Assembly (NCBI GenBank): GCA_028277945.1 | Contig: JANQFH010000008.1 | Location: 259,442 to 323,441, forward strand | DNA from: Oligoflexia bacterium | GTDB lineage: Bacteria > Bdellovibrionota_G > JANQFH01 | DNA length: 64,000 bases | Reading direction: 5' to 3' | Shown here: positions 1 through 36,221 of the stretch, piece after piece | Layout: every line of letters starts with the position of its first letter | How positions within the stretch are numbered: the first letter of the stretch is position 1 | The notes under the pieces: model-generated | Databases searched by the model: none | The model's input: the letters and a program-made list of their open reading frames with translations, nothing else | Told to the model about the DNA's origin: nothing | Translations under genes and position numbers: made by a program

Positions 1-2124
1 TTAACCGAAGCCATCGCTGACGAAAGATCGATCCAGCGACTCATTGAACGTACTTACAATGTAAGGCTCACAGCACCCCCTAAAGATCGACACCATGATG
101 TTGCCTACTCTTTTGCCAGAGACGAATTAGTAATTTTATTAAAGCTGCTTACGGATCTCTCCAAGCCGGTTGTGCGGGCGATGTCGTTGCGACAGATGGT
201 TAGGCTAAGGCCGGGCTACGTCATTAAAAAAGACGAAATTAGCTTACCAGAGGAGGTCGTTGATCAGAGCGGTGTGGTGGCTGCATACTATGATGCGAAT
301 ACAGAGACCATCTACTTTGCTGATGCGGCATTTAAGAATGGTCGTTTTCTAGGCGAGGGTACAGTTTTGCATGATCTTGGCCATGCTCTGTGGAAAGAGC
401 TGGATTTGCGCTTAAAAGAAGAGTTCATTGGCTTGAGCTGGGAGTGGCCTGAGGAGTCGGGAGCGACACTCTGGGATATCTATCGAGGTACTGGACGGAA
501 GGGTGGGCCGAAGTGGGAGTTGCGTGCGGGTATACGTCCAACCGATTTTGTTAGCATGGATCCACGACAGGAGGGTGAGCTAAGAGATGATCCCTATAGC
601 ATGACAAATCCCGCCGAAGACTTTGCAGAACACTTTGCTGCCTACGTGCGTCGACCTGAATTGCTCAAAACACAGACATCAGAGATAGAGGCAGAGACAT
701 CGAAGAAGTATGACTATTTTCGTCAGCGCATCTTTCCACGCACTCGCTATGAGACCGGAGGTTACCGTCATCACAGCACCCATCTCATGACAGACGAGGA
801 GCCTGACGAGCGAGGGCCTTACTTAATGGGCAAAGTTGAAGATGCCGTGAACATAACGGTAGAGGTAAATGAAAAAGAGGATGCTTATTTAGACTTTGTA
901 TGCACGGTAAGCGGTATTTTTGATGATCTTTCTGGGGTGGCGTGGATCTGCTTGGAGCTGCGTAGTCCGATGGGTCTCCCAGGTAGACGGGGTTTAGAAA
1001 AATTTTCGCTGTCTAAAGATTCTGACTGCATGGATGAAGAGCAGGGAATCTACCGGTCGTGTCGCACAAAGTTGCGACGGGATTTTCGTGAAAGTGAATA
1101 CGAGATAGTCACATTTTTTGCTGGAGATATGAGTGGTAAAAAGAGTTACTTTGATACTTCTGGCCTTCAAAATATCTTTGTGCCGGGAACCTATGAGCCC
1201 AAAATTGAGCCAATAGAGGAAGACCCTCGCGAACCTCGTCCAAAAGAGCACCCTCTGGACGCCATAGAACTACAGCAACAGATTGCTATTCAATCGCTTG
1301 GTGAGCTCCACGCCGATTTGGGTGAGGGCTTTGAGTTGTTTTTACCAGTAGCGCTAAGTGATGATTTGCGATTCCTTACTTTTTCGGTCTTGTTACCTGA
1401 GGACGATGGACAGGTTCTAATGTATGGAGTTTGGAACAAGCAAAGTCTGGAAAGGTCTATTCGTGCGGTTGATAGTGAGCACATGGCCATGAGATTTGTC
1501 TTGCCTAAAAAGGTGCGGTCAAGACAAGCTAAGCTCTTAAAAGTATGGCTAAGTTATAACAAGACAGAGGAACTTCGGGACGAATCATATGACATAGAAC
1601 TTCCAAGTGATCTTGCAAACCTGACTTTCGATATTACCCGGCGGGAACCGGATACAACGCCGCCCGAACTTAACTGGGATTATATTCAGTATGGTTGGGA
1701 AAAGGTTGAAAGAAACAGGAATAACGGCACGAACAATCGTATCGTAGTTGTACCGATAGAAAACATTGAACCTCAGCACGTAAGCATCGTGAAAATGTCG
1801 ATGGTAAGAGTTAAAGATGGAGCAATCTTAAACGGAAATTTAGTTAGTTCAAATGATTCTGGTAGGTTCAGAAACTTTGTATTCAGATTTCCACTGCCGC
1901 CGCATGCACAACTAGATTACCTCACTCACGAGATAGAGATTACTGAAAAGCCTGATCATGTGGAAATACCAAGGGAAGAGTGGCCAACGGGGGTTCTTGA
2001 ATCGGGCGGTTTTTACAGTTGGAAAAAGACCTTTAGGGCTACTAGTATTGATGTTGAACGCGAAGTCTTTGTCGGCACTCAAGATCCAGAAGCTCCGCCA
2101 ATCCCGGTTAATCGAGATCGGTAA
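1..2124 (+). CDS. Putative zinc-metallopeptidase-like protein, 5'-truncated by window edge
   Basis: The reading frame is open from base 1 to the stop at 2124 (707 codons visible). The GTG at 172 lies in continuous coding-like sequence, so the true start is probably left of the window. The N-terminal part holds HDLGHALW and, about 80 residues later, NPAEDFAEHFAAYV. This spacing resembles the HExxH plus downstream Glu arrangement of gluzincin-type zinc peptidases, but the catalytic Glu position of HExxH is Asp here. The remaining ~450 residues are beta-rich by appearance and match no family I recognise. It converges on the PHP-UvrD gene, 8 bp away. The peptidase role is inference; the protein could be an inactive relative or a zinc-binding scaffold. 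Confidence 0.7.
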   Translation, partial: LTEAIADERSIQRLIERTYNVRLTAPPKDRHHDVAYSFARDELVILLKLLTDLSKPVVRAMSLRQMVRLRPGYVIKKDEISLPEEVVDQSGVVAAYYDANTETIYFADAAFKNGRFLGEGTVLHDLGHALWKELDLRLKEEFIGLSWEWPEESGATLWDIYRGTGRKGGPKWELRAGIRPTDFVSMDPRQEGELRDDPYSMTNPAEDFAEHFAAYVRRPELLKTQTSEIEAETSKKYDYFRQRIFPRTRYETGGYRHHSTHLMTDEEPDERGPYLMGKVEDAVNITVEVNEKEDAYLDFVCTVSGIFDDLSGVAWICLELRSPMGLPGRRGLEKFSLSKDSDCMDEEQGIYRSCRTKLRRDFRESEYEIVTFFAGDMSGKKSYFDTSGLQNIFVPGTYEPKIEPIEEDPREPRPKEHPLDAIELQQQIAIQSLGELHADLGEGFELFLPVALSDDLRFLTFSVLLPEDDGQVLMYGVWNKQSLERSIRAVDSEHMAMRFVLPKKVRSRQAKLLKVWLSYNKTEELRDESYDIELPSDLANLTFDITRREPDTTPPELNWDYIQYGWEKVERNRNNGTNNRIVVVPIENIEPQHVSIVKMSMVRVKDGAILNGNLVSSNDSGRFRNFVFRFPLPPHAQLDYLTHEIEITEKPDHVEIPREEWPTGVLESGGFYSWKKTFRATSIDVEREVFVGTQDPEAPPIPVNRDR

Positions 2125-11674: not shown

Positions 11675-12265
11675 TTAGATGGAAGCGGGTTGCGGACGAT
11701 CCGGGGCAGTGGCTTCGTCGTCAATGGAGGATTCGATTTCGTGGCAGAGGTGGTTGATTTTTTGGATGGCTGTCTGGTTGTCGATGCTGTCACGGATGGT
11801 TTTCAGCGCAGTAATTTCATCACGGTGGCGTTGGCGTATGGTGTGCAACACCTCGTTGATACCCTTGGCAACACCTTGAAAGTGATCTGAGCGACGCAGC
11901 TTGAGTTGGCCGCTGAGATCTCCGTTGGCTGCCCTTCGTAGAAACTTCTCCATCGCATAAACCGGGCCAACAAGACGGTGGCTAAAGAAGAGGCCAAAGA
12001 TACCGACCAAAAACATATTGAGGATAAGATAGGCAAAGAGTTTCAGCAACAGGGCTTTCTGTTGCACGATGATAAACGACAGAGCAATGGGATTTTTATC
12101 CAGACCGTACTTGGCAGCCTCATCAACCACGTTGTTGTCGACAAGCAGCATATAGGCCAGCAGTTGGATAGCCGTGAGCATGGCAATAAATACCAGCAGA
12201 GCGGCAAAGCGAATCTGTATCTCTTTATTGATAAAGTAGCGCCGGCGGCGATTTTTACTAGCCAT
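11675..12265 (-). CDS. Membrane-anchored HAMP-domain protein without output domain
   Basis: The protein has 196 residues. A first transmembrane helix lies at about 20-42 (IRFAALLVFIAMLTAIQLLAY region), then a short periplasmic loop, and a second helix at about 73-95 (LLLKLFAYLILNMFLVGIF region). A HAMP linker follows (FSHRLVGPVYAMEKFLRRAANGDL region). The C-terminal ~80 residues look helical and coiled-coil-like. No kinase, methyl-accepting or cyclase domain follows. HAMP domains relay conformational signals across the membrane; here the signal would have to go to a partner protein. It converges with the nucleotidyltransferase gene across the inverted repeat. Confidence 0.8.
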   Translation of the reverse strand: MASKNRRRRYFINKEIQIRFAALLVFIAMLTAIQLLAYMLLVDNNVVDEAAKYGLDKNPIALSFIIVQQKALLLKLFAYLILNMFLVGIFGLFFSHRLVGPVYAMEKFLRRAANGDLSGQLKLRRSDHFQGVAKGINEVLHTIRQRHRDEITALKTIRDSIDNQTAIQKINHLCHEIESSIDDEATAPDRPQPASI

Positions 12266-12611: not shown

Positions 12612-14780
12612 TCAACCTGCATAGCGGTTGATAAAATTGCTGACAATGCGATAGGCGAGCTGCAGTTGCTCGACGCTGATGCGTTCATCTGCGCCGTGGA
12701 TGCGGTTGAGGTCGTCCTGTTTGAAGAGAGCAGGGAAGATGCCAAAACAGGGGAGCTCATGCTGACGGAAAAAACCGAGGCTGGTGTGAACGGGTAGCAG
12801 ACAGGGGCAGACCGTCGCCTGCGGACACTCCTCTTCAATAGCCAGACGTAGTTTGCGAAAGTTTTCATCGGTGAACGAGGTCTCGTTAGGAGGGGCACTG
12901 TGAGTGATGTCGATTTCAACCCGTTTGTCATCGATGTTCTTTTGCAGTTTGCGGACAAAGGCCTGAGTTTCTACTCCAGGTAGTAGACGACAGTCGAGTG
13001 TGGCCGAGGCATCTTGGGCAAGGACGTTTTCTGCTTCACCCGCAACCACTTGCGTGACGGCAATGCTGTTACGAAACATCGCGCGCAAAAAGGGTTGGTT
13101 GGCAAGCGGGCCGCGCAGTTGATTGGCAAAGATCGGCACCTGTAGGGCTTGGCTGACAATGCGGCTAAAGAGGCTGCTCTTCTGACGTATGGAGGCCAAC
13201 AGCTGCTCGGTGACCGGTAGCACCACGAGTTCGCTCTCCATGGTGGTTATGCGCTGCAGGGCATTCATGAGAATCTGTAGCGGATACTCCTCAGGTGGGG
13301 TGGCGCTATGGGCACTGGTATCGAGTTTGACATGTAAGCGCAGCCAGAGGCTGCCCTTCTCGGCCGTATCAATAAGAAAGATCGGCTGCTCCGATCCAAG
13401 CAGGTCGGTAAAACCAAAACCACCGTGGCTAATGAGAACTTTAGCGCGTAGCTGATCCAGTTGACTCTGGGCGATGAAGTGACCACCCTCACGACCACCG
13501 CGTTCTTCATCAGCCACACAGATAAAGTGTAGCGGCACACTCTTGGGTGCGGTGAGAAAAGCCGTGAGGTAGACAACCAACAGCCCCTTCATATCGATGC
13601 TGCCACGACCCCAGATATAGCCATCTTGTTGGGCGCCGGAGAAAGGTGGTTTGTGCCAACCTGCAACTTCCGTGGCAACAACATCGCCGTGGCTTAACAG
13701 CACCACATAACAGTGCTGGTGGTCCAAGGTGTTGACCGAAGGCTTGCCTTTGGTGGCCACGAGGTTGGTGTGTCCAGCGGGGGAGAGGTGTAACTTGCTG
13801 GGAACATAGTTGGCATCCAGAACGTTGGTGAGGATCTGGCAGATCTGTCGCTCGCCAGCTGCGTTGGAAGAGTCAACCTGCAGCAGTAATGAGAGTAGCC
13901 GCGCCATGAAGTTACTCCGCTCGGTTTCATTGGCAGAGGGTTTGAGCCGGTAGTCTTGCCAGTCAACCGCGGCAAGACGGGCTGAGGCGCGCATGCCAAA
14001 GTGGATCAACATGGTGTTGATCACCTGCCAAGCGTCCTCAGCCATATCGACCGAATCTCTATAAGTCGAGCTGCCCATGAGCTCACCGATGTGGACGCGT
14101 ACGTCCATGTGATCTCTCTGGCCTATTTTGTAGAGCGTCCGCACAAAGTTGCCGGACCAACTCATCAGTTCTGGATCTCCATAGTTTATCGCCACTGGCA
14201 GAACCGGTTTGTTGGCCTTGATCGCTAGATCAAAGGCGCCGTACCGAAACGGCAGTAGCGTATGCCCGTCGCTGGTTTTCCCCTCAGGAAAGAGAATGAT
14301 GTTTTGGTTGAAATGGAGACGTTGTAGGATCTCATCGCGTACGCGTTGGCGTGACTCTTTTGAGGAGCGATCAACAAAAATTGTCCCGATCATCATGGCG
14401 CCAAGACCAACAACCGGCCAAAACCGCACCTGCGACATGGACAAAAAGATTCCCGGCATCACCGTGCCGATGACGATAATATCAATAAAGGTTGTATGGT
14501 TGGCGACCACCAAGTAACCAGGTTGGTAGGGAATAGGATGGCCTTCGTTACGGACGCGCAGCTGATAAACCAGGCAGAGCATGCGGCACCAGAACTGGCA
14601 GAGCAGCATGTTGGCTCGGCGCTTCTGTTGTTGTGGCAACAAAAAGACAAAGACGCCAAAACCCATGATCAGCGATGTATAGAAGACAAGACCGAACAGG
14701 CGGATGATGCTACGGGCCTTTAGGTAGCCATTATGGCAGCGCTTTTTCCAGGCAGCGCGATCAAACCAAGCAGAGTTCAT
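12612..14780 (-). CDS. PlsC-type acyltransferase fused to M20-family peptidase/amidohydrolase
   Basis: One uninterrupted frame gives 722 residues from the ATG at 14780, which has a GGAG about 10 nt upstream; a TTG at 14822 would add 14. After a membrane segment (residues ~28-48), an LPLAT/PlsC domain shows NHTTFID (94-100), FVDRSSKESRQR, FPEGKTSDG (164-172) and PVAINYGD. From ~305 to the end it is an M20 metallohydrolase: HGDVV (364-368), WGRGSIDMKG with Asp396, ADEERGG with Glu-Glu at 425-426, and a C-terminal HGADERIS His at ~695. PlsC enzymes transfer fatty acyl chains. M20 enzymes hydrolyse amide bonds, and PM20D1-type members make or cleave N-acyl amino acids. The fusion suggests linked acyl transfer and deacylation at the inner membrane; the substrate is unknown. 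Confidence 0.88.
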   Translation of the reverse strand: MNSAWFDRAAWKKRCHNGYLKARSIIRLFGLVFYTSLIMGFGVFVFLLPQQQKRRANMLLCQFWCRMLCLVYQLRVRNEGHPIPYQPGYLVVANHTTFIDIIVIGTVMPGIFLSMSQVRFWPVVGLGAMMIGTIFVDRSSKESRQRVRDEILQRLHFNQNIILFPEGKTSDGHTLLPFRYGAFDLAIKANKPVLPVAINYGDPELMSWSGNFVRTLYKIGQRDHMDVRVHIGELMGSSTYRDSVDMAEDAWQVINTMLIHFGMRASARLAAVDWQDYRLKPSANETERSNFMARLLSLLLQVDSSNAAGERQICQILTNVLDANYVPSKLHLSPAGHTNLVATKGKPSVNTLDHQHCYVVLLSHGDVVATEVAGWHKPPFSGAQQDGYIWGRGSIDMKGLLVVYLTAFLTAPKSVPLHFICVADEERGGREGGHFIAQSQLDQLRAKVLISHGGFGFTDLLGSEQPIFLIDTAEKGSLWLRLHVKLDTSAHSATPPEEYPLQILMNALQRITTMESELVVLPVTEQLLASIRQKSSLFSRIVSQALQVPIFANQLRGPLANQPFLRAMFRNSIAVTQVVAGEAENVLAQDASATLDCRLLPGVETQAFVRKLQKNIDDKRVEIDITHSAPPNETSFTDENFRKLRLAIEEECPQATVCPCLLPVHTSLGFFRQHELPCFGIFPALFKQDDLNRIHGADERISVEQLQLAYRIVSNFINRYAG

Positions 14781-14958
14781 TTCTAAGCAGCTCCATTCTG
14801 ACAGAAACCAGCCAGTTGGCAACTACGTAGCATGGTTTGGTTCGTAAACAGATCCATATCCGTGCGGATTTCGCACTGCTGCAGCTCAGCTGCATGGGGG
14901 TTTGGTTCTCTTTTGCCGTAGTTGCGATTGGCCCCACTCTTGCTAACTCGGAGGCAGC

Positions 14959-15618: not shown

Positions 15619-15626
15619 GCTTGACT

Positions 15627-17351
15627 ATGCTCAAAGGCAACTATCGCTTCGTTGTTCTGACGGTTTTGGCACTGTTGCTAGGGCTGCTTATCCGTAGCGA
15701 TACGGCTCCTATGGCTGCAGTCGAACGTGGTTGGGGTAGTGGCAGCAGCCACTTCATTGTGCACTACCCGCCTGATCCGGTGAACGTACAGAACGGCAAC
15801 TTCTTTTTGCCAATCCAAGATCTCTTTTTACCCTGCTATGGCTTTCCTTTGGAAGTTTACCGCGCCTATAATAGCGTCTCACGCGATACAGGTTCGTTTG
15901 GATATGGTTGGAGCTTTAACTACAAGGTCCGTATTGCTGTGGCTCCAGGAGAAAAACTCACCGTAGTTGAGCCCGATGGTTTTATAAATGTCTATACGGC
16001 CGTTGGCAGTGACAAGGTGGATAGCAAACAGATCGACGCTATCCTTACTGCCAAACGCAAAGAGGATGAGCGTTACCTTGGGCAGCAACGTAATGACGCC
16101 CACTACGAGAAGATCCGTAAGAAGTTGGCCAGTGATGCAAAGTACTTTCGGCGTCAGAGTGCGCGCTATCTGCCGCGTACGGAGAAGAGCGTTGAAGTTG
16201 GCAAATTTGTCTCACGGCGCCGGGGCACGACCTATATCTATCGGCAAAAGAATGGCTACGAACGTCGTACTCAAGATGGCCGTGTTGAGCGCTATAGTTT
16301 AGATGGCCTGCTGCGTAACATTCAAGACCGCAATGGCAATGAAACGCGGCTTCGCTACGATCGCCAGTCGCGCCTAACCCAGGTGTTCGATGCCTGTGGT
16401 CAGTATCTCAAGTTTGGCTACAGCCGTCAGGGGCGCATCCAATCGGTCATCGACAACTACCTACGCACGCTCTCCTATACCTACGATGATGAGGGCCGTA
16501 TGACCAGCTCGCGTGGTCTAGACGGCAAGATCGTCCGCTACGACTACGAGAAAAAGAGCGGCAAGATGAACAAGATTGTCTTTCCAGACGGCAAGCAGAC
16601 GAAGATCTTCTATGACAAGAAGAGCGGCCGAGTTCGGCGCCAACAGGGTCCAGGAAAGAAAGTCACCAACTACAAGTACCGGAGCCGTGGGCGTAACTAT
16701 CTAGCCGCTGAGGTCAGTGACAGCGATGGGGGTTATGGCAAGTACGAGTACTTTCCTAAGGAGAATAAGTCAATCCAAACGGATAAGAGTGGCCGCAAAA
16801 CCGTTACCATTACCTCAGCTTGTTGCGGCAAACCAGTCAGCATAACCGACGATAAAGGTAAGGGAGAGTTTTATAAGTACGATGACAGCAGTAATCTTAT
16901 AGAGAAGTACAGCAGTGATGGGCGGACAACGCTTTACACCTACGAACCACGCTACTATCAGATCAGCTCGGTAACGACCCCAGATGAGGTAACCACACGC
17001 TTCTTCTACGATGGCAAAGGCAACCTCAATCGAGTAAGCAACAGTAAGGAGGAGGAGTTGTCCCTGAGCTACAACAGCCGTGGTAAGATCGGCTCGGTCT
17101 CTGACAAGCAGGGTAACCTGGTGGTGTTTGAATACAACAAGACAGGCAAGACTACGCGGGTGGCCAAGAATCGCGTTAAAGATGGTAAGGAGAGACGTAT
17201 TGGCGAGATTCGTGTTGCCTACCTTGCGCATGGCGATGTTGACCAGGTCACCTACAAGCCAGATGATGCCAAGGTTGTCGAAGATATCCGTGCGACCTTG
17301 GTAGACTTTATGCGGATACTGGGGCCGGCGGGGATCTCGTTTGGGATTTGA
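15627..17351 (+). CDS. RHS/YD-repeat protein with DUF6531-like N-terminal domain
   Basis: The protein has 574 residues from ATG 15627 (a TTG at 15621 is possible). A signal anchor (FVVLTVLALLLGLLIRS) precedes a DUF6531-like region, VNVQNGNFFLPIQDLFLPCYG with the characteristic GYGWSFNYKV. YD repeats follow (LRYDRQSRLTQVFDACGQYL, YTYDDEGRMTSSRGLDGKIV, FFYDGKGNLNRVSNSKEEEL). RHS proteins form beta-shells that enclose toxic C-termini in effectors, but this one ends without the usual core-closing DPxGxxxxxN motif and has no toxin-like tail. It is short for the family and could be a surface protein or a truncated RHS gene. The rhodanese gene begins immediately after its stop. Confidence 0.8.
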   Translation: MLKGNYRFVVLTVLALLLGLLIRSDTAPMAAVERGWGSGSSHFIVHYPPDPVNVQNGNFFLPIQDLFLPCYGFPLEVYRAYNSVSRDTGSFGYGWSFNYKVRIAVAPGEKLTVVEPDGFINVYTAVGSDKVDSKQIDAILTAKRKEDERYLGQQRNDAHYEKIRKKLASDAKYFRRQSARYLPRTEKSVEVGKFVSRRRGTTYIYRQKNGYERRTQDGRVERYSLDGLLRNIQDRNGNETRLRYDRQSRLTQVFDACGQYLKFGYSRQGRIQSVIDNYLRTLSYTYDDEGRMTSSRGLDGKIVRYDYEKKSGKMNKIVFPDGKQTKIFYDKKSGRVRRQQGPGKKVTNYKYRSRGRNYLAAEVSDSDGGYGKYEYFPKENKSIQTDKSGRKTVTITSACCGKPVSITDDKGKGEFYKYDDSSNLIEKYSSDGRTTLYTYEPRYYQISSVTTPDEVTTRFFYDGKGNLNRVSNSKEEELSLSYNSRGKIGSVSDKQGNLVVFEYNKTGKTTRVAKNRVKDGKERRIGEIRVAYLAHGDVDQVTYKPDDAKVVEDIRATLVDFMRILGPAGISFGI

Positions 17352-19981: not shown

Positions 19982-21943
19982 ATGCATCGAGGCAAATGTA
20001 TAGGGTGGCGGTTACAGATAATACTTTCATCCTGGTTTGTCGTCAGCGTTGTTTGTGTGACTATTTGTCAGGGGTTTGCAGGTTATGCTGAGACAGAATT
20101 TTATCCGCAGCTACCAGCCGACTTACTGCCCTTAACACCAACTTTTACCGTAGTGCCTGAACAGATAGATGACGACTTGGAGGCAAAAGAGCACTATGCT
20201 TTTCCTGTCGACTATCCACACTTAGAACACTACAGTCCTATTGAACACGGTTTTAGGGTTCCTATTCGTGTTAATCGTCTACCCACTGATCCACTCCTAG
20301 AGCATATCAAATGGCTTACGGTAATACCGCTAACAGAGCTCAACGACGAGACAGACGGCCCATTCTATGCAGACCTTTATCTATATGGAGAGTCGGGTGC
20401 TAGCATCGTCATTCGTGAGTTTGACTTTCGTAAGCTTATGCATCAGACGGTTCCTCAAGCCACCAACTGTATACAACAGCTGCATAGCTGGTTTGGTGAG
20501 TTTGAACGGCGTGAGCGCAGACTCCATGTAACATTGTCAAAAGGGAAGCATGGCAGTGGAGTGGGGAGTTGGATCTCTGGCATTGGTTCTTGGATGGGCA
20601 GTCTGTTTCGTGAAGAAGAAGGGATATCCAAACAGCAAAGAGAGCCTGCCATACCCTGGTATACCGTTGAGGTCACCGTTACCAATAACTGCCAGACAGC
20701 CGCAAATATTGAAATCGACATCGTTGCCTATCTCGAGAACTATGAGGGTGGCAGCAAAGAGTTGTCCGCGCATGCTGTTTTTCCGCCGATCTTTTTTGAT
20801 CAGGTGATGCGGGGATACTGCAATGCTTCCATTGGTAGCGCTGGTAATGGACTTCGCTACCCTGTTCATCTTGAAAACGGTAGTGTCGTCTATTTGCCCT
20901 TCAAACAGCTTGCGGGTGAAGAGCTGCATCAGGCATTTCCCTCTTGCTCCGTGCACGAACTAACTGAAGGTTTTGGTATGGACCCGAAACCATGGAGCTA
21001 TGCTATTACTGAGGTAAAGGTGTCACGTGACGAACCGATTACCCTCTTATATGGGTCTTTGAAGAAGCTGGCGATTTATCCGCCTCGCAGCAAATCTTTA
21101 GCATACTATTTTTGGGAGGATCTTGGCATCTCGCTACCGATTATTGAGCGGCCCGATTCTGAACACATTATTGTAAGAAGACCCAATTATAGCAGCTTGA
21201 ACCATGGACCGCTTGAATCTCGATATACAGAAGTACGTCTAGATCTACCCCTGGATTCTTACTTCTCTCCTGAGGAGATGCCTTGGTTTAGCGACCTCTG
21301 GACAGCAGCAGACGATAACTTTCGCATTCGCTATAGCCGTTTTACAGAGGATGGTATTTATCCGGCCAGCAAAGAGGCGTTTCACCCGCGTGATATGGGT
21401 GATGAACAGAAGTGGCAGCTTGATATGGAGCAGGCTTACCTCAACCGTTGGGGTGACCCTGAAAACATACGTGTCAAGCAGACAGCATATGGTCGTCTAC
21501 AACTCGAGCTCCTCGATCCTGATAGAGAAGTGAATTTGGTGGTTGGTAATCCCTATCCGCGTTATCGGTACATGATTCAACCAGATAGGTATCTAACCTT
21601 TGGTCCACGACACGGCGATGTAGCGGCTAAAGATCGTCTTTCCCACTCAAGCCATTTGCTTGGGCTGGCCACACAACAGCGTAGTATCACTTATTGGCAC
21701 GATCCCTATCAGCCGCATCCCTTTTTCGCCGTTCTCTTTGATGCCGTAGGCAAGGTCCTAAACCATCATTCGCTTGGCGTGGAGACGGTCTCTATTACTG
21801 CTTATCCGCATCCAGAAAGATCTAAAGAGGTTGTTTTGGCAGTGAGGCTGCTCTCCTATGAAGATATCATTACTTTAAGATTGCATTTGACCCGTCGAGA
21901 AAGCGTATCATCCCTATTTCACAGCGAACCGCAAGCGACATAG
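19982..21943 (+). CDS. Large secreted protein of unknown function
   Basis: The protein has 653 residues. A hydrophobic signal segment (LQIILSSWFVVSVVCVTICQ) is followed by a mature chain rich in Tyr, Pro and Glu. It looks beta-rich, with a Gly/Ser-rich tract near residue 200 (GSGVGSWISGIGSWMGSLF) that might be a membrane-active or flexible insert. No catalytic motif or known domain is recognised. It is the largest orphan in the window. The next gene, 132 bp downstream, is a CcmH-like biogenesis factor, but no heme motif is present here. Likely periplasmic or surface exposed. Confidence 0.7.
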   Translation: MHRGKCIGWRLQIILSSWFVVSVVCVTICQGFAGYAETEFYPQLPADLLPLTPTFTVVPEQIDDDLEAKEHYAFPVDYPHLEHYSPIEHGFRVPIRVNRLPTDPLLEHIKWLTVIPLTELNDETDGPFYADLYLYGESGASIVIREFDFRKLMHQTVPQATNCIQQLHSWFGEFERRERRLHVTLSKGKHGSGVGSWISGIGSWMGSLFREEEGISKQQREPAIPWYTVEVTVTNNCQTAANIEIDIVAYLENYEGGSKELSAHAVFPPIFFDQVMRGYCNASIGSAGNGLRYPVHLENGSVVYLPFKQLAGEELHQAFPSCSVHELTEGFGMDPKPWSYAITEVKVSRDEPITLLYGSLKKLAIYPPRSKSLAYYFWEDLGISLPIIERPDSEHIIVRRPNYSSLNHGPLESRYTEVRLDLPLDSYFSPEEMPWFSDLWTAADDNFRIRYSRFTEDGIYPASKEAFHPRDMGDEQKWQLDMEQAYLNRWGDPENIRVKQTAYGRLQLELLDPDREVNLVVGNPYPRYRYMIQPDRYLTFGPRHGDVAAKDRLSHSSHLLGLATQQRSITYWHDPYQPHPFFAVLFDAVGKVLNHHSLGVETVSITAYPHPERSKEVVLAVRLLSYEDIITLRLHLTRRESVSSLFHSEPQAT

Positions 21944-26518: not shown

Positions 26519-26645
26519 AGCAGATTTGCCAAATAGGTCTATTTTATGGCTTGGCCCACAGCGCCTGTCATAGCCTGTAAACGGTGGGCCAGTTGATAAC
26601 GCACCACATTAGTGCTATAAACTGTCTTCTTTGAAGGAGTTGACC

Positions 26646-28046
26646 ATGCTATCTTTTCGCCACCTTTGCCGTCCTCTAGTTGTCTTTCTAGCCATCGCTT
26701 TACTCGCCACGACGCTAGCGGCCGACGACAAGAGTCGGCGTGAACGGATTGTCAAAGCGTGGGGCGATCGTGCCTCCCGATTCAGTGAACCACAGCTCAA
26801 AGCCCTAGAAGAGCTCGTTCTAATTACCGATTATGTCGACGCACAGCTGTATGCCGATTTAGAAGAGGTGCAACAGGAATTTCCCATCGAATATCCCTTT
26901 ACCGAATACGAAGCCGGTCTAAAACCGACCGATCCTAGTCGCATTGCCATGGAGTGGCATATTAACGAAGATCATGCTCCTCCGGGGATGGACCTACCTG
27001 AATCCATGCAACAGAGGCTGTTACCAATCCTTGGACGCCGGCAGGTGAACCTGGCTCCTACAGCGCCGCATATGGAGTCTTTAGATAGCGAAGAGAGTGA
27101 GTTCATCAACCATCGCATGTTTGTTCACCATCACGTCATCGCCCTGCCTAAGGATAAAAAAATCGAGCGCTTCATCTATAAGAGACCAGATGATTATGAC
27201 CCCGAGTTGGAAGAAGAACCACTGCCGCTTGAGTATGAAGTCTGGTCGATGCCTATTGGTACACGACTGATTCACCGTATTGATTTCAAGATGTTCAATG
27301 ACGAGGGTGATAAAATCATCCCTGCCCCGTTAGGTGTTGTCGGTCGTACTGCCGATAGTGGTGATAATGTGGAATCCAAGCACGTTGAGCTTCCCGTGCT
27401 TGAAGTGTTCACACGCCGCGGCCTTTTTCCTTACGAGCTACGCATTTTGGAAAAGGTCAAGCAGCCAAACCAGGCGGAACGTTGGATCGCTTATACCTCA
27501 CAGTTTGCAGCTGATGGATCGGCACGCTGGATACGCATCAAGGATCCCTCTGGTAGGCGCCGATTTGTGGATGGGCCGGCAATCGATGAATTGAGATCTG
27601 AGAGACGCTTTCAATTTAGCAGCTCGTATTTTGGTCGTGAAGGCGAGCGCTTTCAAGTCCATCAGCTTGCTATCCAATCACAATCCTGTCTTGGCTGCCA
27701 CGGTGCGACAACCATAGCCACCCACCAGTTGCCATTGCTTATTGTTGAAGGTTTTGAATTTTTTTCTGCTGCCGCAGTTGAAAGGATACCCTTTCCTGCG
27801 CGTGGACAGGTGAATAGAGTGCGAGGCCGTATGCGTCGCGCTCTTATGGCGCTAAACAGTGGGCCCATTAGCTTTGCGCCGACCAACCCGACGATTTTAG
27901 CTGAGGGCTCTAAACTGCGCGTTCTCTTTAATGAAAAGCCAGAGGAAAAGGAGTGGCCGGAGCATCTCGAAGTTGACGATCCCTTTTCACCTGAAGAGGC
28001 GATCTATAGTAAGAAGCAGATTAAGAAATTTTTAGGCGAAAAGTGA
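26646..28046 (+). CDS. Secreted protein with single CxxCH heme-binding motif
   Basis: I chose ATG 26646 because AAGGAG lies 6 nt upstream (26634-26639). The protein has 466 residues with a signal peptide (LVVFLAIALLATTLAA, cleavage near AADDK). No known domain is recognised over most of the length, but QSCLGCHGATTIATHQ, about three quarters along, is a typical c-type heme attachment site. That makes it a likely periplasmic monoheme protein. A run of His residues (MFVHHHVIALP) could supply metal or heme ligands. The CcmH-like gene 4 kb upstream fits a cell that matures c-type cytochromes. Electron partners are unknown. Confidence 0.75.
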   Translation: MLSFRHLCRPLVVFLAIALLATTLAADDKSRRERIVKAWGDRASRFSEPQLKALEELVLITDYVDAQLYADLEEVQQEFPIEYPFTEYEAGLKPTDPSRIAMEWHINEDHAPPGMDLPESMQQRLLPILGRRQVNLAPTAPHMESLDSEESEFINHRMFVHHHVIALPKDKKIERFIYKRPDDYDPELEEEPLPLEYEVWSMPIGTRLIHRIDFKMFNDEGDKIIPAPLGVVGRTADSGDNVESKHVELPVLEVFTRRGLFPYELRILEKVKQPNQAERWIAYTSQFAADGSARWIRIKDPSGRRRFVDGPAIDELRSERRFQFSSSYFGREGERFQVHQLAIQSQSCLGCHGATTIATHQLPLLIVEGFEFFSAAAVERIPFPARGQVNRVRGRMRRALMALNSGPISFAPTNPTILAEGSKLRVLFNEKPEEKEWPEHLEVDDPFSPEEAIYSKKQIKKFLGEK

Positions 28047-31565: not shown

Positions 31566-33956
31566 ATGTTGTTCACACGGCTCATTGGCTGGCTGATTCG
31601 AAAACGTTTTTGGGTACTTACAGCTTTGATCGGCGTGACGGCGGTCTCTGCCTGGCTTACCAGTCGACTGCAGCTGCGCAGTGGTTTTGAGGACCTCCTA
31701 CCTCCTGAATTTCAAAGCGTGAAGATTCTCAAGGAGATTCCCAAACGGGTGGGCGGACCTGGATTTCTTATCCTCGGTGTTGTTGGTGAAGACCTTGCAG
31801 CATTGCAACGGTTTGCAGAAGCCTTAACACCGCGTCTCGAAGAGCTGAGCACGTTACGCTATGTTATCTACAAACGGGAGAATGACTTTATTTCTGATCA
31901 CCGTATGCTCTATCTCGGTGTCGAGGATCTTGAGGACATACACACCGAGTTGGTTGAAGAGATAGATCGGCAAAAACTCGATAAGAACCCCTTTTACTTT
32001 TCCCTGGAGGAGGAAGAAGAGGCCAGCAATCTCAAGAGTCAGATTGAGAGTTATGAAGAGCAGCTCTTTGGGTCGGATCTCTACTTTGTGACGCCAGAGA
32101 ACAAGCGACGTCAGCAGATCATGTTGGCGATGTTGCTCAAACCACGTGGTTTTCCTTCGGACATTCCCTTTTCACGTCGCCTGCTTGCAGAGGTCGACGA
32201 CGCAATCAACGCCACGAAATCAGAGAGCTTTCACCCGTCGATCTATGTCTATCCATTGGGCGCATACCGCTTCAATGAGATGGAGTACACTCAGCTAAAA
32301 AGAGATATTGGTTCGAGCCTATTCCTGGCCCTGGTTTTGATCGCTATGATGTTGCTGCTCTATTTTAAGAGTTGGCGGCTGCTGGCCTGGATTGCCTTAC
32401 CCCCGCTGACCGGTCTGATTTGGACCTTTGGTCTTACCTATCTGCTTATCGGCTACCTGACAACCCAGACGGCGTTTATGGCGGCCATACTACTCGGTCT
32501 CGTGGTCGATGCTTCGATTCACCTCTCCAATCACTACCTGCAGGCAAAGGATCGACTCAAAGGTGATAACGTTGCGGCGGTGAAGCAGGCCATGCAGTCA
32601 AGTTTCAGGCCCATTGCTGCAGCCATCTTTACTACCAGTGGCGCCTTTTTCACCCTAACACTGACAGACTTTCTCGCCTTCAAACACTTTGGTATTATTG
32701 GCGGGCTTGGTCTTATTCTCTGTGCTATCTCCACCTACTTTGTCTTTGGACTTTTAGCAGTGTTCTTCCCACTGCAGCGAGTTATCTTTCGTCGTAATCT
32801 CTGGGTGCGCTTTATCCGTTTTCTTAGCAGTGATCGGGTACCGCTGCGTGCGCCTATAACTCTGCTGGCCGTAGTAGCTATTGTTGTGGTGTGGTCCGTC
32901 GTCAATACAGCCAACATCCAATTCGAATACAATATCGACAATCTCAAGGCACGTAGCGTAGAGAACGAACGCCATCTAGATATGCTCAAAGAGGTATTTC
33001 CGCAGGGCCTAACACCAACGGTGATGATGCCAAAAAACCTTGAACAGGCCCGTGAAATTCAGCAGCTTCTCGATGCCAAGATAGAGCGTGGTGAGATTAC
33101 TACGGTAGATCGTGTTGAGACCGTCTATTCCATCGTGCCAGACAACCAAGAGGAGAAATTGGCGGTTGTTGCCAAGATTCGTGCGCTCTTTAGCCGACAT
33201 CGCAAGACTCTAGAGAAAGAGTACGGTGCTGAAGAGGTCAACCTCTGGGAGAGGTGGCTCAATGTCAGCAGCATTGGTCTTGAGGATTTGCCTGAATCGC
33301 TGCGTCGCCTCTTTGTTGGTGTGGATGGCTCCTTCGGCCTGTTTGTGAATATCTATCCCAATGTCAATACCAACGACGGCAAGAATCTCGCGCGTTATGC
33401 GGGTGAGGTCTATTCTGTAGAAACCAGTCAGGGTAGGGTCTACAGTGGTGGTGAGCAGATCATCTTTGCCGACATGCTGGATTTGATGAACCGCGATGGC
33501 AAGCGTGCGCTTATCTATTCGTTGCTCTTTATCGTCTTTATTCTCTTTGTCCTCTACCGGCGTGTAGTAGCTGTAGTCACGGTGCTGACGCCTCTCTTGG
33601 TCGGTACTATACTACTGTGTGGTTGTATGGCCTACTTTGATATCAAACTCAATTTTTTTAATTTTATTGTTTTTCCTTCGATCATTGGTATTGGCGTTGA
33701 CAACGGCATTCACATTTACAACCGTTTTCAACGCTTCCCAAACGATAGGATACGGATTATCATGCAGACCACTGGTGGGGCCATTACCATGACCTCGCTG
33801 ACCACCGTTATTGGTTTTGCCACACTGATGTTAGCGAAGAACCAGGCGCTTGTCTCTGTAGGCTTGTTGGCCGTTGTCGGTGTGGGGCTTTGCTGGATCT
33901 GCTCTATAACGGTGCTACCTGCTATTCTTAAGCTGCAGAGAAGACTAACACCGTGA
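31566..33956 (+). CDS. RND/MMPL-family lipid exporter
   Basis: The protein has 796 residues with an RND-superfamily topology: a first membrane helix at ~15-32, a large periplasmic loop, a cluster of helices (SLFLALVLIAMMLLLYF, LLGLVVDASIHLSNHYLQA, FFTLTLTDFLAFKHFGIIGG), and a second half repeating the pattern (RALIYSLLFIVFILFVLY, IIGIGVDNGIHIYNRF, TTVIGFATLMLAKNQALVSV). The paired GLVVD and GIGVDN motifs are the proton-relay helices of MMPL/HpnN-like proteins, which move hydrophobic lipids toward the outer membrane. It overlaps the next gene by 4 bp (GTGA). The position beside lipid-synthesis genes supports lipid export. Confidence 0.9.
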   Translation: MLFTRLIGWLIRKRFWVLTALIGVTAVSAWLTSRLQLRSGFEDLLPPEFQSVKILKEIPKRVGGPGFLILGVVGEDLAALQRFAEALTPRLEELSTLRYVIYKRENDFISDHRMLYLGVEDLEDIHTELVEEIDRQKLDKNPFYFSLEEEEEASNLKSQIESYEEQLFGSDLYFVTPENKRRQQIMLAMLLKPRGFPSDIPFSRRLLAEVDDAINATKSESFHPSIYVYPLGAYRFNEMEYTQLKRDIGSSLFLALVLIAMMLLLYFKSWRLLAWIALPPLTGLIWTFGLTYLLIGYLTTQTAFMAAILLGLVVDASIHLSNHYLQAKDRLKGDNVAAVKQAMQSSFRPIAAAIFTTSGAFFTLTLTDFLAFKHFGIIGGLGLILCAISTYFVFGLLAVFFPLQRVIFRRNLWVRFIRFLSSDRVPLRAPITLLAVVAIVVVWSVVNTANIQFEYNIDNLKARSVENERHLDMLKEVFPQGLTPTVMMPKNLEQAREIQQLLDAKIERGEITTVDRVETVYSIVPDNQEEKLAVVAKIRALFSRHRKTLEKEYGAEEVNLWERWLNVSSIGLEDLPESLRRLFVGVDGSFGLFVNIYPNVNTNDGKNLARYAGEVYSVETSQGRVYSGGEQIIFADMLDLMNRDGKRALIYSLLFIVFILFVLYRRVVAVVTVLTPLLVGTILLCGCMAYFDIKLNFFNFIVFPSIIGIGVDNGIHIYNRFQRFPNDRIRIIMQTTGGAITMTSLTTVIGFATLMLAKNQALVSVGLLAVVGVGLCWICSITVLPAILKLQRRLTP

Positions 33957-35032
33957 GACAGTGGCTATTTACCTCACTGCTGACGCTGTTGACATTCGGA
34001 CTGCTTATCCTCTGGCTAAAGCAGAGTTATGATTTTGATCTACGGGCTTTGTTGCAGGTGAGCCCCCTCTTCCTTGCCATGGGCGTTATGCTATCGTTAC
34101 TAGATTTGGCGCTGCGCGGGGCACGCATTCAGCTGGTAACCAATCAGGTCGGTGGCGCCATTCGTTTTTGGCAGGGTGTGCGCATTGTCCTGGCAGTTGA
34201 TTTCTTTGCAGCGATTTCACCCTCGCGCATAGCGGGTGAGCCGGCAAGAGTGGCCGGCCTCATGCGCTATGGCGTGGGTGGTAGCAAAGCTCTTGTCGTT
34301 GCAGGCGTTGAAGCGGTTCTAGACCTTGGCTATCTGTTTATTGCCTTGCCCTTTTTCTTTTGGTTGACCCGTGGTGAAGATTCCAACCTCTTGCAGATTG
34401 TGCGTTTTATTGCTGTGGCGGCGATCGGCGTTGTTTTTGTGTTCATCTTGGTTCTGTTTTTGCGCGACTCTGTGGTGGCACGGCTGGTAGGCCGATTAAA
34501 GCAGTGGGCGCCTGGACTCTATCGACTGCTCTCTAGGCGAGAGCGCTGGAATCTGGTGGAAGGCGTGCAGGAGTTGCGGGCCAATCTCTTTCGTCTGTTA
34601 CGTGGTCCCTGGTGGTGTTTGCCACTCGGTGTTTTGCTTACCTGTGGTTGGTGGGTGGTGCGATTTGGCGCGCTCTTTTGGATTGCCATGGTACTAGGAT
34701 TTCATCTCTCAGTAGTGGAGATCTTTTGGCCACAGTTTCTTATTCATAACTCTATCATTCTCACACCCATGCCTGTGAGCGGTGGTCTGTTTGAAGCGAG
34801 CTTTCTCTTTATCTACCAAGAGATGATTCCACGTTATCTACTGCCAAGTGCCATGGTGTTGTGGCGCTTTTTTACCTACTATGTTTTTGTCGTCTTTGGT
34901 GCGGTAACGACAACGCGGCTGATGTGGCGGGTTGTGACTGAGCGTTTAGCGATACAGCGGGTGCAGCGTCGACAGCGGTCTCAGGACGAAGATCTCACTG
35001 GCCTGTCTGTGCCGCAGCCGCCACTGAGTTAG
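33953..35032 (+). CDS. LPG-synthase transmembrane-domain (flippase-like) protein
   Basis: The protein has 359 residues starting at the GTG that overlaps the exporter stop. Around eight membrane helices are visible (for example LFTSLLTLLTFGLLILWL, FLAMGVMLSLLDLALRG, YLFIALPFFFWLT, IGVVFVFILVLFL). The signature ISPSRIAGEPARVAGLMRYG matches the conserved loop of UPF0104/LPG_synthase_TM proteins, which include the flippase half of MprF. No synthase domain follows. It could flip a lipid or help load the neighbouring RND exporter. The final 38 bp overlap the convergent SPT-like gene. Confidence 0.87.
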   Translation: MRQWLFTSLLTLLTFGLLILWLKQSYDFDLRALLQVSPLFLAMGVMLSLLDLALRGARIQLVTNQVGGAIRFWQGVRIVLAVDFFAAISPSRIAGEPARVAGLMRYGVGGSKALVVAGVEAVLDLGYLFIALPFFFWLTRGEDSNLLQIVRFIAVAAIGVVFVFILVLFLRDSVVARLVGRLKQWAPGLYRLLSRRERWNLVEGVQELRANLFRLLRGPWWCLPLGVLLTCGWWVVRFGALFWIAMVLGFHLSVVEIFWPQFLIHNSIILTPMPVSGGLFEASFLFIYQEMIPRYLLPSAMVLWRFFTYYVFVVFGAVTTTRLMWRVVTERLAIQRVQRRQRSQDEDLTGLSVPQPPLS

Positions 35033-36221
35033 ATCGGCCAATAAGTCCAAACTCCTCGCCCACCTCGGCGAAGACCTGCAGCACCTTTTTAATGTCTTCT
35101 TCGCTATGCGATGCCATGTAGCTGGTGCGGATGGCGCTCTTACCCGGTGGAGTGGCTGGCGGTATGACCGGCGTGGAAAAGAGCCCTCTATCAAACAACG
35201 CCTGGGCCACAGTGAAGGTAAAGTCTCGTTCACAGTCGAGGTTAACTGGTACGATCGCAGCCTCTCCAGAGCCAACGTTATAGCCAAGCTCTTTCAATCC
35301 CTCTTTGGCCATATCGGTATTGCGGTGCAGTTTTTCTCGCAGCTCTGGTTCGCGTTCCATGATCTCCAAGCTCTTGAGTGCGACGGCAATCGATGCCGGT
35401 GGCGGGCTGGCGCTAAAGATGAGCGGCCGGGCGTGGTGTTTGACGTAAGAGATGACTTCGTAGGGTCCAGCAAGAAAACCGCCAATGGATGCAAGCGATT
35501 TACTAAAGGTACCCATGACTAGATCGACTTCCTGTTGCAGCTTGAAGTGCTCCCCAGTGCCGCGACCGTGATCCCCAAGCACACCCAAGGCATGCGCTTC
35601 ATCAATCAGAAGTTTGGCGCCATACTGCTTGGCGAGGCGAACCATATCGGCAAGCCGGCAAACCTCACCGCTCATGCTGAAGACACCGTCTGAGACAATG
35701 AGTTTTTCTTTGACCTCTTGCTGTCTCTTTAGATGTGCCTCTAAAGCATCCATGTCACTGCTCTGGTAGCGGATAACCTTACCCAAGGAGAGTTGGCAAC
35801 CCTCAGCAATGCTGGCGTGGTTTTCCCGATCGGACAAGATCACGGAATGGCGTGAGGTGATGGTAGGGATGGTGCCTGCGTTGACGAAAAAACCTGTACT
35901 GAAGACAATCGCAGCCTCCTTTTGGACAAAGCGGGCCAATCGCTCTTCGAGTTCATCGTGGATATCCATATTGCCGTTTAAGAAGCGCGATCCCGTACAG
36001 CCGGCGCCATAGCGATCCACGGCCTCTTTGGCTGCAGCCAACACCTCGGGGTGGTTTGCCAACCCAAGGTAGTTGTTGGAGCCGATCATAATCTTCTCTT
36101 TGCCATCGACAATGACATGGGGGCCGGCACAACCAGCAATCGGGCGGAAGTAGGGGTAGATGCCAGCGGCACGAGCCTCCTCAGGGTCGCGGTAGTCGTA
36201 ACACTTTTTGAACAGTGACAT
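34995..36221 (-). CDS. spt: Alpha-oxoamine synthase, serine palmitoyltransferase-like
   Basis: The protein has 408 residues, a PLP enzyme of the BioF/KBL/HemA/SPT family. His135 (ENHAS) stacks on PLP, DEAH at 207-210 holds the cofactor Asp and His, and Lys241 in GTFSKSLASIGGF forms the Schiff base. The segment GAGCTGSRFLNGNMDIHDEL resembles bacterial serine palmitoyltransferase more than BioF (GSGGSR...SGT) or KBL. SPT condenses serine with an acyl thioester to 3-ketosphinganine, the first step to ceramides. It is the last gene of an operon with a GNAT protein and an outer-membrane protein. The sphingolipid assignment is strong inference, not proof; acyl-CoA or glycine/alanine substrates remain possible. 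Confidence 0.85.
   Translation of the reverse strand: MSLFKKCYDYRDPEEARAAGIYPYFRPIAGCAGPHVIVDGKEKIMIGSNNYLGLANHPEVLAAAKEAVDRYGAGCTGSRFLNGNMDIHDELEERLARFVQKEAAIVFSTGFFVNAGTIPTITSRHSVILSDRENHASIAEGCQLSLGKVIRYQSSDMDALEAHLKRQQEVKEKLIVSDGVFSMSGEVCRLADMVRLAKQYGAKLLIDEAHALGVLGDHGRGTGEHFKLQQEVDLVMGTFSKSLASIGGFLAGPYEVISYVKHHARPLIFSASPPPASIAVALKSLEIMEREPELREKLHRNTDMAKEGLKELGYNVGSGEAAIVPVNLDCERDFTFTVAQALFDRGLFSTPVIPPATPPGKSAIRTSYMASHSEEDIKKVLQVFAEVGEEFGLIGRSNSVAAAAQTGQ

Follow-up and report, generated by a model that had tools for sequence, protein, structure and literature searches.

A single uninterrupted open reading frame of 722 codons and a stop occupies positions 12612–14780, minus strand, of the window (the whole 64,000-nucleotide stretch of DNA analysed here), and reading the sequence reveals neither an internal stop nor a frameshift in it. 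The encoded protein matches PF01553, PF01546, and PF07687 above the cut-offs, which confirms the single-frame fusion of an acyltransferase with an M20 hydrolase claimed in an earlier sequence-only reading. A Shine–Dalgarno-like GGAG (14791–14794, minus strand) precedes the ATG by 10 nt, and the GC and GC3 values (0.52 and 0.63 for the N-terminal half, 0.55 and 0.62 for the C-terminal half) are like those of neighboring genes. The gene, complete as judged by its frame, its Pfam matches and its mid-contig position, lies inside a 514-kb contig, away from the contig edges; the genome assembly comprises 2.86 Mb in 92 contigs and is estimated to be 96% complete and less than 0.1% contaminated.

On one side of the fusion gene lies a divergent RadC gene (14959, plus strand) and, on the other, a gene for a 196-aa protein with no Pfam match (11675–12265, minus strand); Pfam annotation of the neighboring frames identified no adjoining lipid genes. 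Directly after RadC, a gene for a short RHS-repeat protein with DUF6531 (15621–17351, plus strand) overlaps a rhodanese gene, and three large frames of the window (172–2124, 19982–21943, and 26631–28046, all plus strand) have no Pfam match at the thresholds used. At 31566–35032 (plus strand), the gene for an HpnN-like MMPL transporter overlaps that for a flippase-like LPG_synthase_TM protein, the two probably forming a lipid transport pair, and 34995–36221 (minus strand) encodes a PLP enzyme of the serine palmitoyltransferase/BioF group, possibly a sphingolipid gene, with 489 bits to the SerpalmtaseCFB model, below its cut-off of 640.

Pfam places PF01553 at residues 79–198 (E 6.7e-25), PF01546 at 361–718 (E 6.4e-21), and PF07687 at 472–620 (E 1.4e-8), all above curated cut-offs; the OlsB-like domain PF13444 is absent from the protein in the same scan. 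The acyltransferase half covers residues about 20–245 (14046–14723; Pfam, NCBIfam, and alignment with the Thermotoga maritima PlsC structure, TmPlsC, 5kym) and is followed by a linker of about residues 246–280 (13941–14045), predicted with low confidence up to about residue 264, and by the M20A half, residues about 281–722 (12615–13940; Pfam, NCBIfam, Foldseek, and structure prediction). In the AlphaFold2 model, built with 43 sequences, pLDDT is mostly above 90 over residues 271–722, and the whole chain has mean pLDDT 83.8 and pTM 0.67, so that structure prediction, which had been suggested as a check, returned an M20 fold. By profile and by prediction, then, both folds are present in one chain. 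The membrane segment noted from sequence corresponds to two predicted N-terminal helices, 18–46 and 50–71 (together residues 18–71, 14568–14729), which lie in the region aligned with TmPlsC and fit the two-helix, one-sided membrane motif of PlsC; the predicted attachment is of this kind, and a through-membrane span is no part of the result.

Both catalytic motifs of the acyltransferase half are intact, as had been noted: the HX4D motif NHTTFID (residues 94–100, 14481–14501) and FPEG (164–167) within FPEGKT (164–169, 14274–14291), which is followed by SDG to give TSDG, the same as in OlsA of Sinorhizobium meliloti. Sequence search among solved structures returned a single relative, TmPlsC, which shares with this half the two-helix motif, the acyltransferase core and the catalytic His and Asp and differs from it at two positions: Lys105 is replaced by Met115 (14436–14438) and Arg159 by Thr169, according to the alignment (PMC6688108, PMC8319176). 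A role in holding the phosphate of lysophosphatidic acid has been suggested for Lys105 and Arg159 (PMC6688108), although a somewhat different role has been given to Lys105 (PMC8319176). Their replacement argues against lysophosphatidic acid as the acceptor. The Arg is also absent from the aligned OlsA and from SalA, an aminolipid O-acyltransferase (PMC8319176), whereas the Lys is kept in OlsA as in PlsC, Met115 being peculiar to the fusion protein.

Model scores point the same way. The best NCBIfam model for this half is that of OlsA, the lyso-ornithine lipid O-acyltransferase (NF052553, NF052552), with 110 bits against a cut-off of 300 and 91 bits for the second OlsA model, compared with 80 bits for the acylglycerol-phosphate acyltransferase model. 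The same order is seen for the S. meliloti protein in L061, to which the half is about 30% identical (433 bits for OlsA vs. 78 for acylglycerol-phosphate), and for a Methylomagnum acyltransferase encoded beside a GNAT N-acyltransferase (128 vs. 76), and it is reversed for Escherichia coli PlsC (45 vs. 173) and for the PlsC-like protein encoded elsewhere in this genome (36 vs. 77). As far as scores and motifs allow one to judge, the N-terminal half therefore resembles OlsA, with which it shares the PF01553 fold, HX4D, FPEG, and TSDG, more than PlsC, while falling short of the OlsA family cut-off; of the two proteins, only the fusion protein is joined to an M20 domain.

The C-terminal half contains both the Peptidase_M20 and the M20_dimer domain, consistent with M20A membership, and Foldseek groups it with carnosinases, DapE, and ArgE. 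Its best NCBIfam model is PRK07906 (NF005913), an uncharacterised M20 group, with 213 bits over the full model length, below the cut-off of 382. Active-site residues were assigned via the residue table of PMC13058870, in which the dizinc site of M20A enzymes has five ligands (H80, D113, E148, E175, and H373 of hAcy1; Table 2). Four of them are present: His364, in HGD (364–366, 13683–13691) together with Asp366; the bridging Asp396 (13593–13595); Glu426, next to the general base Glu425 (13503–13508); and His695 (12696–12698). These are the residues on which the metal motifs had been called complete, with the same numbering wherever a number had been given; the description fails at the remaining ligand, fourth in sequence order (hAcy1 E175, MsAA E185), which is Glu in all 36 aligned homologues, an invariant feature of PRK07906 as well, and His452 here (13425–13427), its CAC codon being two base changes away from any Glu codon. 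Further active-site residues are kept, namely, Asp366, the oxyanion residue His491, Asn585, Asp596, and Arg598, the last four within the dimerisation domain (472–620, 12921–13367).

The second alteration concerns the substrate loop GxTDxR, replaced by VHTSLG (664–669, 12774–12791), where Asp has become Ser667 and the position of hAcy1 R348 is Gly669. Among the 36 relatives this position holds Arg in 20, His in eight, and Lys in three; hAcy1 R348A is inactive, and MsAA has Lys there (PMC13058870). In total, the fusion protein departs from seven of 34 near-invariant M20 columns, compared with 0.64 on average and at most six (L011) for the others in a leave-one-out count. The half thus appears, from its alignment, to have an altered yet far from erased site. 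It has in common with the M20A aminoacylases MsAA, SmAA, hAcy1, and PM20D1 the fold, four of the five ligands, the general base and the dimerisation-domain His, Asn, and Arg, and it differs from them in His452, in Gly669, and in the attached membrane acyltransferase. A PM20D1-like synthase or hydrolase, as initially suggested, is accordingly less plausible: one of five ligands is replaced, the Arg348 contact is lost, and the PM20D1-type model is not the best match (at best 125 bits for PRK08262 vs. 213 for PRK07906).

The full protein was searched against 533 genomes (G000 to G532), a sample in which no large phylum is densely covered and the source phylum is represented by five species, each in its own family. 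No second fusion occurs among the 532 other genomes, including the other four of the source phylum and the phyla of G009, G060, G280, G024, G018, and G196. Homologues of both halves are separate genes, with identity of up to 34% over most of the M20 domain and up to 37% for the acyltransferase, the latter being widespread in the phylum of G009. Always-separate homologues had been named as an observation that would speak against the fusion; they are what this sample contains, and they leave no conservation to argue from, but they do not undo the fusion present here. Peptide-pattern scans, which need near-exact peptides and are insensitive, yielded one M20-only relative (L023) and no fusion in genome contigs and no match in viral contigs; none of the plasmid and phage records covers 80% of the query. 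No described PlsC–M20 fusion was found in the literature, which is weak evidence, as most subscription papers lie outside the search. The fusion is apparently very rare, a singleton in the sample searched. Long M20 frames in G376 (717 aa), G336 (982 aa), and G123 (562 aa) were considered and rejected, their N-terminal parts not being acyltransferases by eye. In G065 (L063, 5255–7641), an acyltransferase gene lies 290 bp downstream of an M20 dipeptidase-like gene on the same strand; since this M20 resembles the dipeptidase-type M20 of the source genome (L003) rather than PRK07906, the lone case was taken as chance and not as a split counterpart.

Taking these features together, we tentatively propose, with a probability of about 0.4, that the protein pairs OlsA-like O-acylation of a lipid without phosphate, probably an amide-linked one, with M20 chemistry on the amide of that same lipid. 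In such a membrane-bound, two-domain lipid enzyme, the N-terminal half would move an acyl chain from acyl-ACP or acyl-CoA (by analogy) onto the hydroxyl of a lysolipid with a phosphate-free head group, for which N-acyl amines and N-acyl amino acid lipids are the likeliest candidates, and the tethered M20A half, cytosolic at the membrane, would either make this N-acyl acceptor or take it apart. The proposal is favored by the OlsA-over-PlsC scores, by TSDG, and by the R159 to Thr and K105 to Met replacements. N-acyl amino acids are both formed and cleaved by M20A enzymes, MsAA and PM20D1 among them (PMC13058870, PMC7145423), and their formation can proceed by condensation of fatty acid and amino acid (PMC13058870). 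As OlsA-like activity depends on an acceptor that is already N-acylated, and M20A chemistry on N-acyl bonds runs both ways, joining of the halves on one substrate would be the most economical account. The earlier suggestion of an N-acyl or O-acyl lipid made at the inner membrane is partly supported by the OlsA-like half and by the N-acyl chemistry of M20A, and is plausible in outline.

In known pathways, N-acylation is carried out by OlsB/OlsF or by GH3. Pfam search of the genome, 96% complete so that absence is not absolute, found neither PF13444, the N-acyltransferase domain of OlsF and of the OlsA partner OlsB, nor GH3 (PF03321); hence another enzyme would be needed if the organism makes such a lipid, aminolipid production being a premise of the proposal. 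The whole protein would then be a functional analogue, built from different parts, of the bifunctional ornithine lipid synthase OlsF, likewise one chain with an O-acyltransferase and an amide-bond-handling domain. OlsF combines a PF19576 N-terminal half (PMC11631085) with an OlsB-like C-terminal half, compared with PF01553 and M20 here. An unrelated pair, OlsH/OlsI of Singulisphaera, reaches an aminolipid from free fatty acid (PMC12493201); it consists of GH3 and an alpha/beta-hydrolase encoded by separate genes, and the source genome lacks GH3.

Several observations weigh against the proposed joint action on one lipid: His452 at a metal ligand, the GxTDxR loop destroyed by D667S and Gly669, the seven departures from near-invariant columns, Met115 in place of a Lys common to OlsA and PlsC, and the lack of both an orthologue with a conserved fusion and an adjacent lipid gene. 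With the metal site and the loop altered, a serious rival, itself doubtful, is that only the acyltransferase works and that the M20 half, no longer an enzyme, persists for dimerisation, for placing the protein at the membrane or for sensing a ligand, perhaps with a single bound metal. The intact fold and dimerisation domain would suit such a role; on the other hand, the general base, the bridging Asp, three more ligands, His491, and Arg598/Asn585 are kept, beyond what drift would be expected to spare, and His can bind zinc. A bolder variant, which we consider unlikely, makes the protein a one-chain lipid synthase or remodeller, in which the M20 half with its His-changed metal site forms or cleaves an amide whose amine lacks the carboxylate contact usual for amino acids, and the second chain is supplied by the fused O-acyltransferase. 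Judging from the alignment, the lost TDxR contact would fit an amine that lacks a free carboxylate, and the serine palmitoyltransferase-like gene 20 kb away makes sphingoid bases conceivable, although nothing ties it to the fusion gene.

Another reading of the N-terminal half, an ordinary lysophosphatidic acid acyltransferase with a peptidase attached, agrees with TmPlsC as its sole solved-structure relative, but both proposed phosphate-binding residues are gone, the OlsA model outscores the acylglycerol-phosphate model, and the genome carries a separate, EGTR-type PlsC candidate, which makes this reading quite improbable. It is also rather unlikely that both halves are active on unrelated substrates and were joined by chance in this lineage, with little consequence for function: the singleton status of the fusion among 533 genomes, with stand-alone homologues of each half, is what an accident would leave, but the frame is intact, and changes unseen in relatives occur in each of the two active sites, which may mean joint adaptation once fused. 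A further explanation, an assembly or sequencing artefact, draws on the fragmented state of a single assembly (92 contigs) and the absence of a second genome with the fusion; a mid-contig position in 514 kb, a frame open over 2.2 kb, even composition and a plausible ribosome-binding site render it very improbable indeed.

Although both constituent families are well known, their combination is new. By one estimate, the known genes enable roughly half of the bacteria sequenced so far to make ornithine lipids (PMC12493201), and some aminolipid pathways (SAL) still have an enzyme that awaits identification (PMC11631085); an OlsA-like O-acyltransferase fused to an amidohydrolase, encoded in a genome where OlsB, OlsF, and GH3 were not found, is a concrete one-gene candidate for another route. 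Were the bolder one-chain variant true, acyloxyacyl amide lipids would have a fourth biosynthetic solution, unrelated to those of OlsBA, OlsF, and OlsH/OlsI. Independently of that, the Glu to His change at an otherwise invariant zinc ligand offers a natural test of the tolerance of the M20 metal site.

A separate observation concerns stand-alone OlsA-like acyltransferases in the phylum of G009. In two genomes (L064, 4195–8743; L067, 848–6299), such a gene lies in a shared order comprising an FtsK-like protein, an unannotated protein with an LLGASNLARG motif, the acyltransferase, and a gamma-carbonic-anhydrase-like protein, the FtsK and anhydrase names having been assigned by eye.
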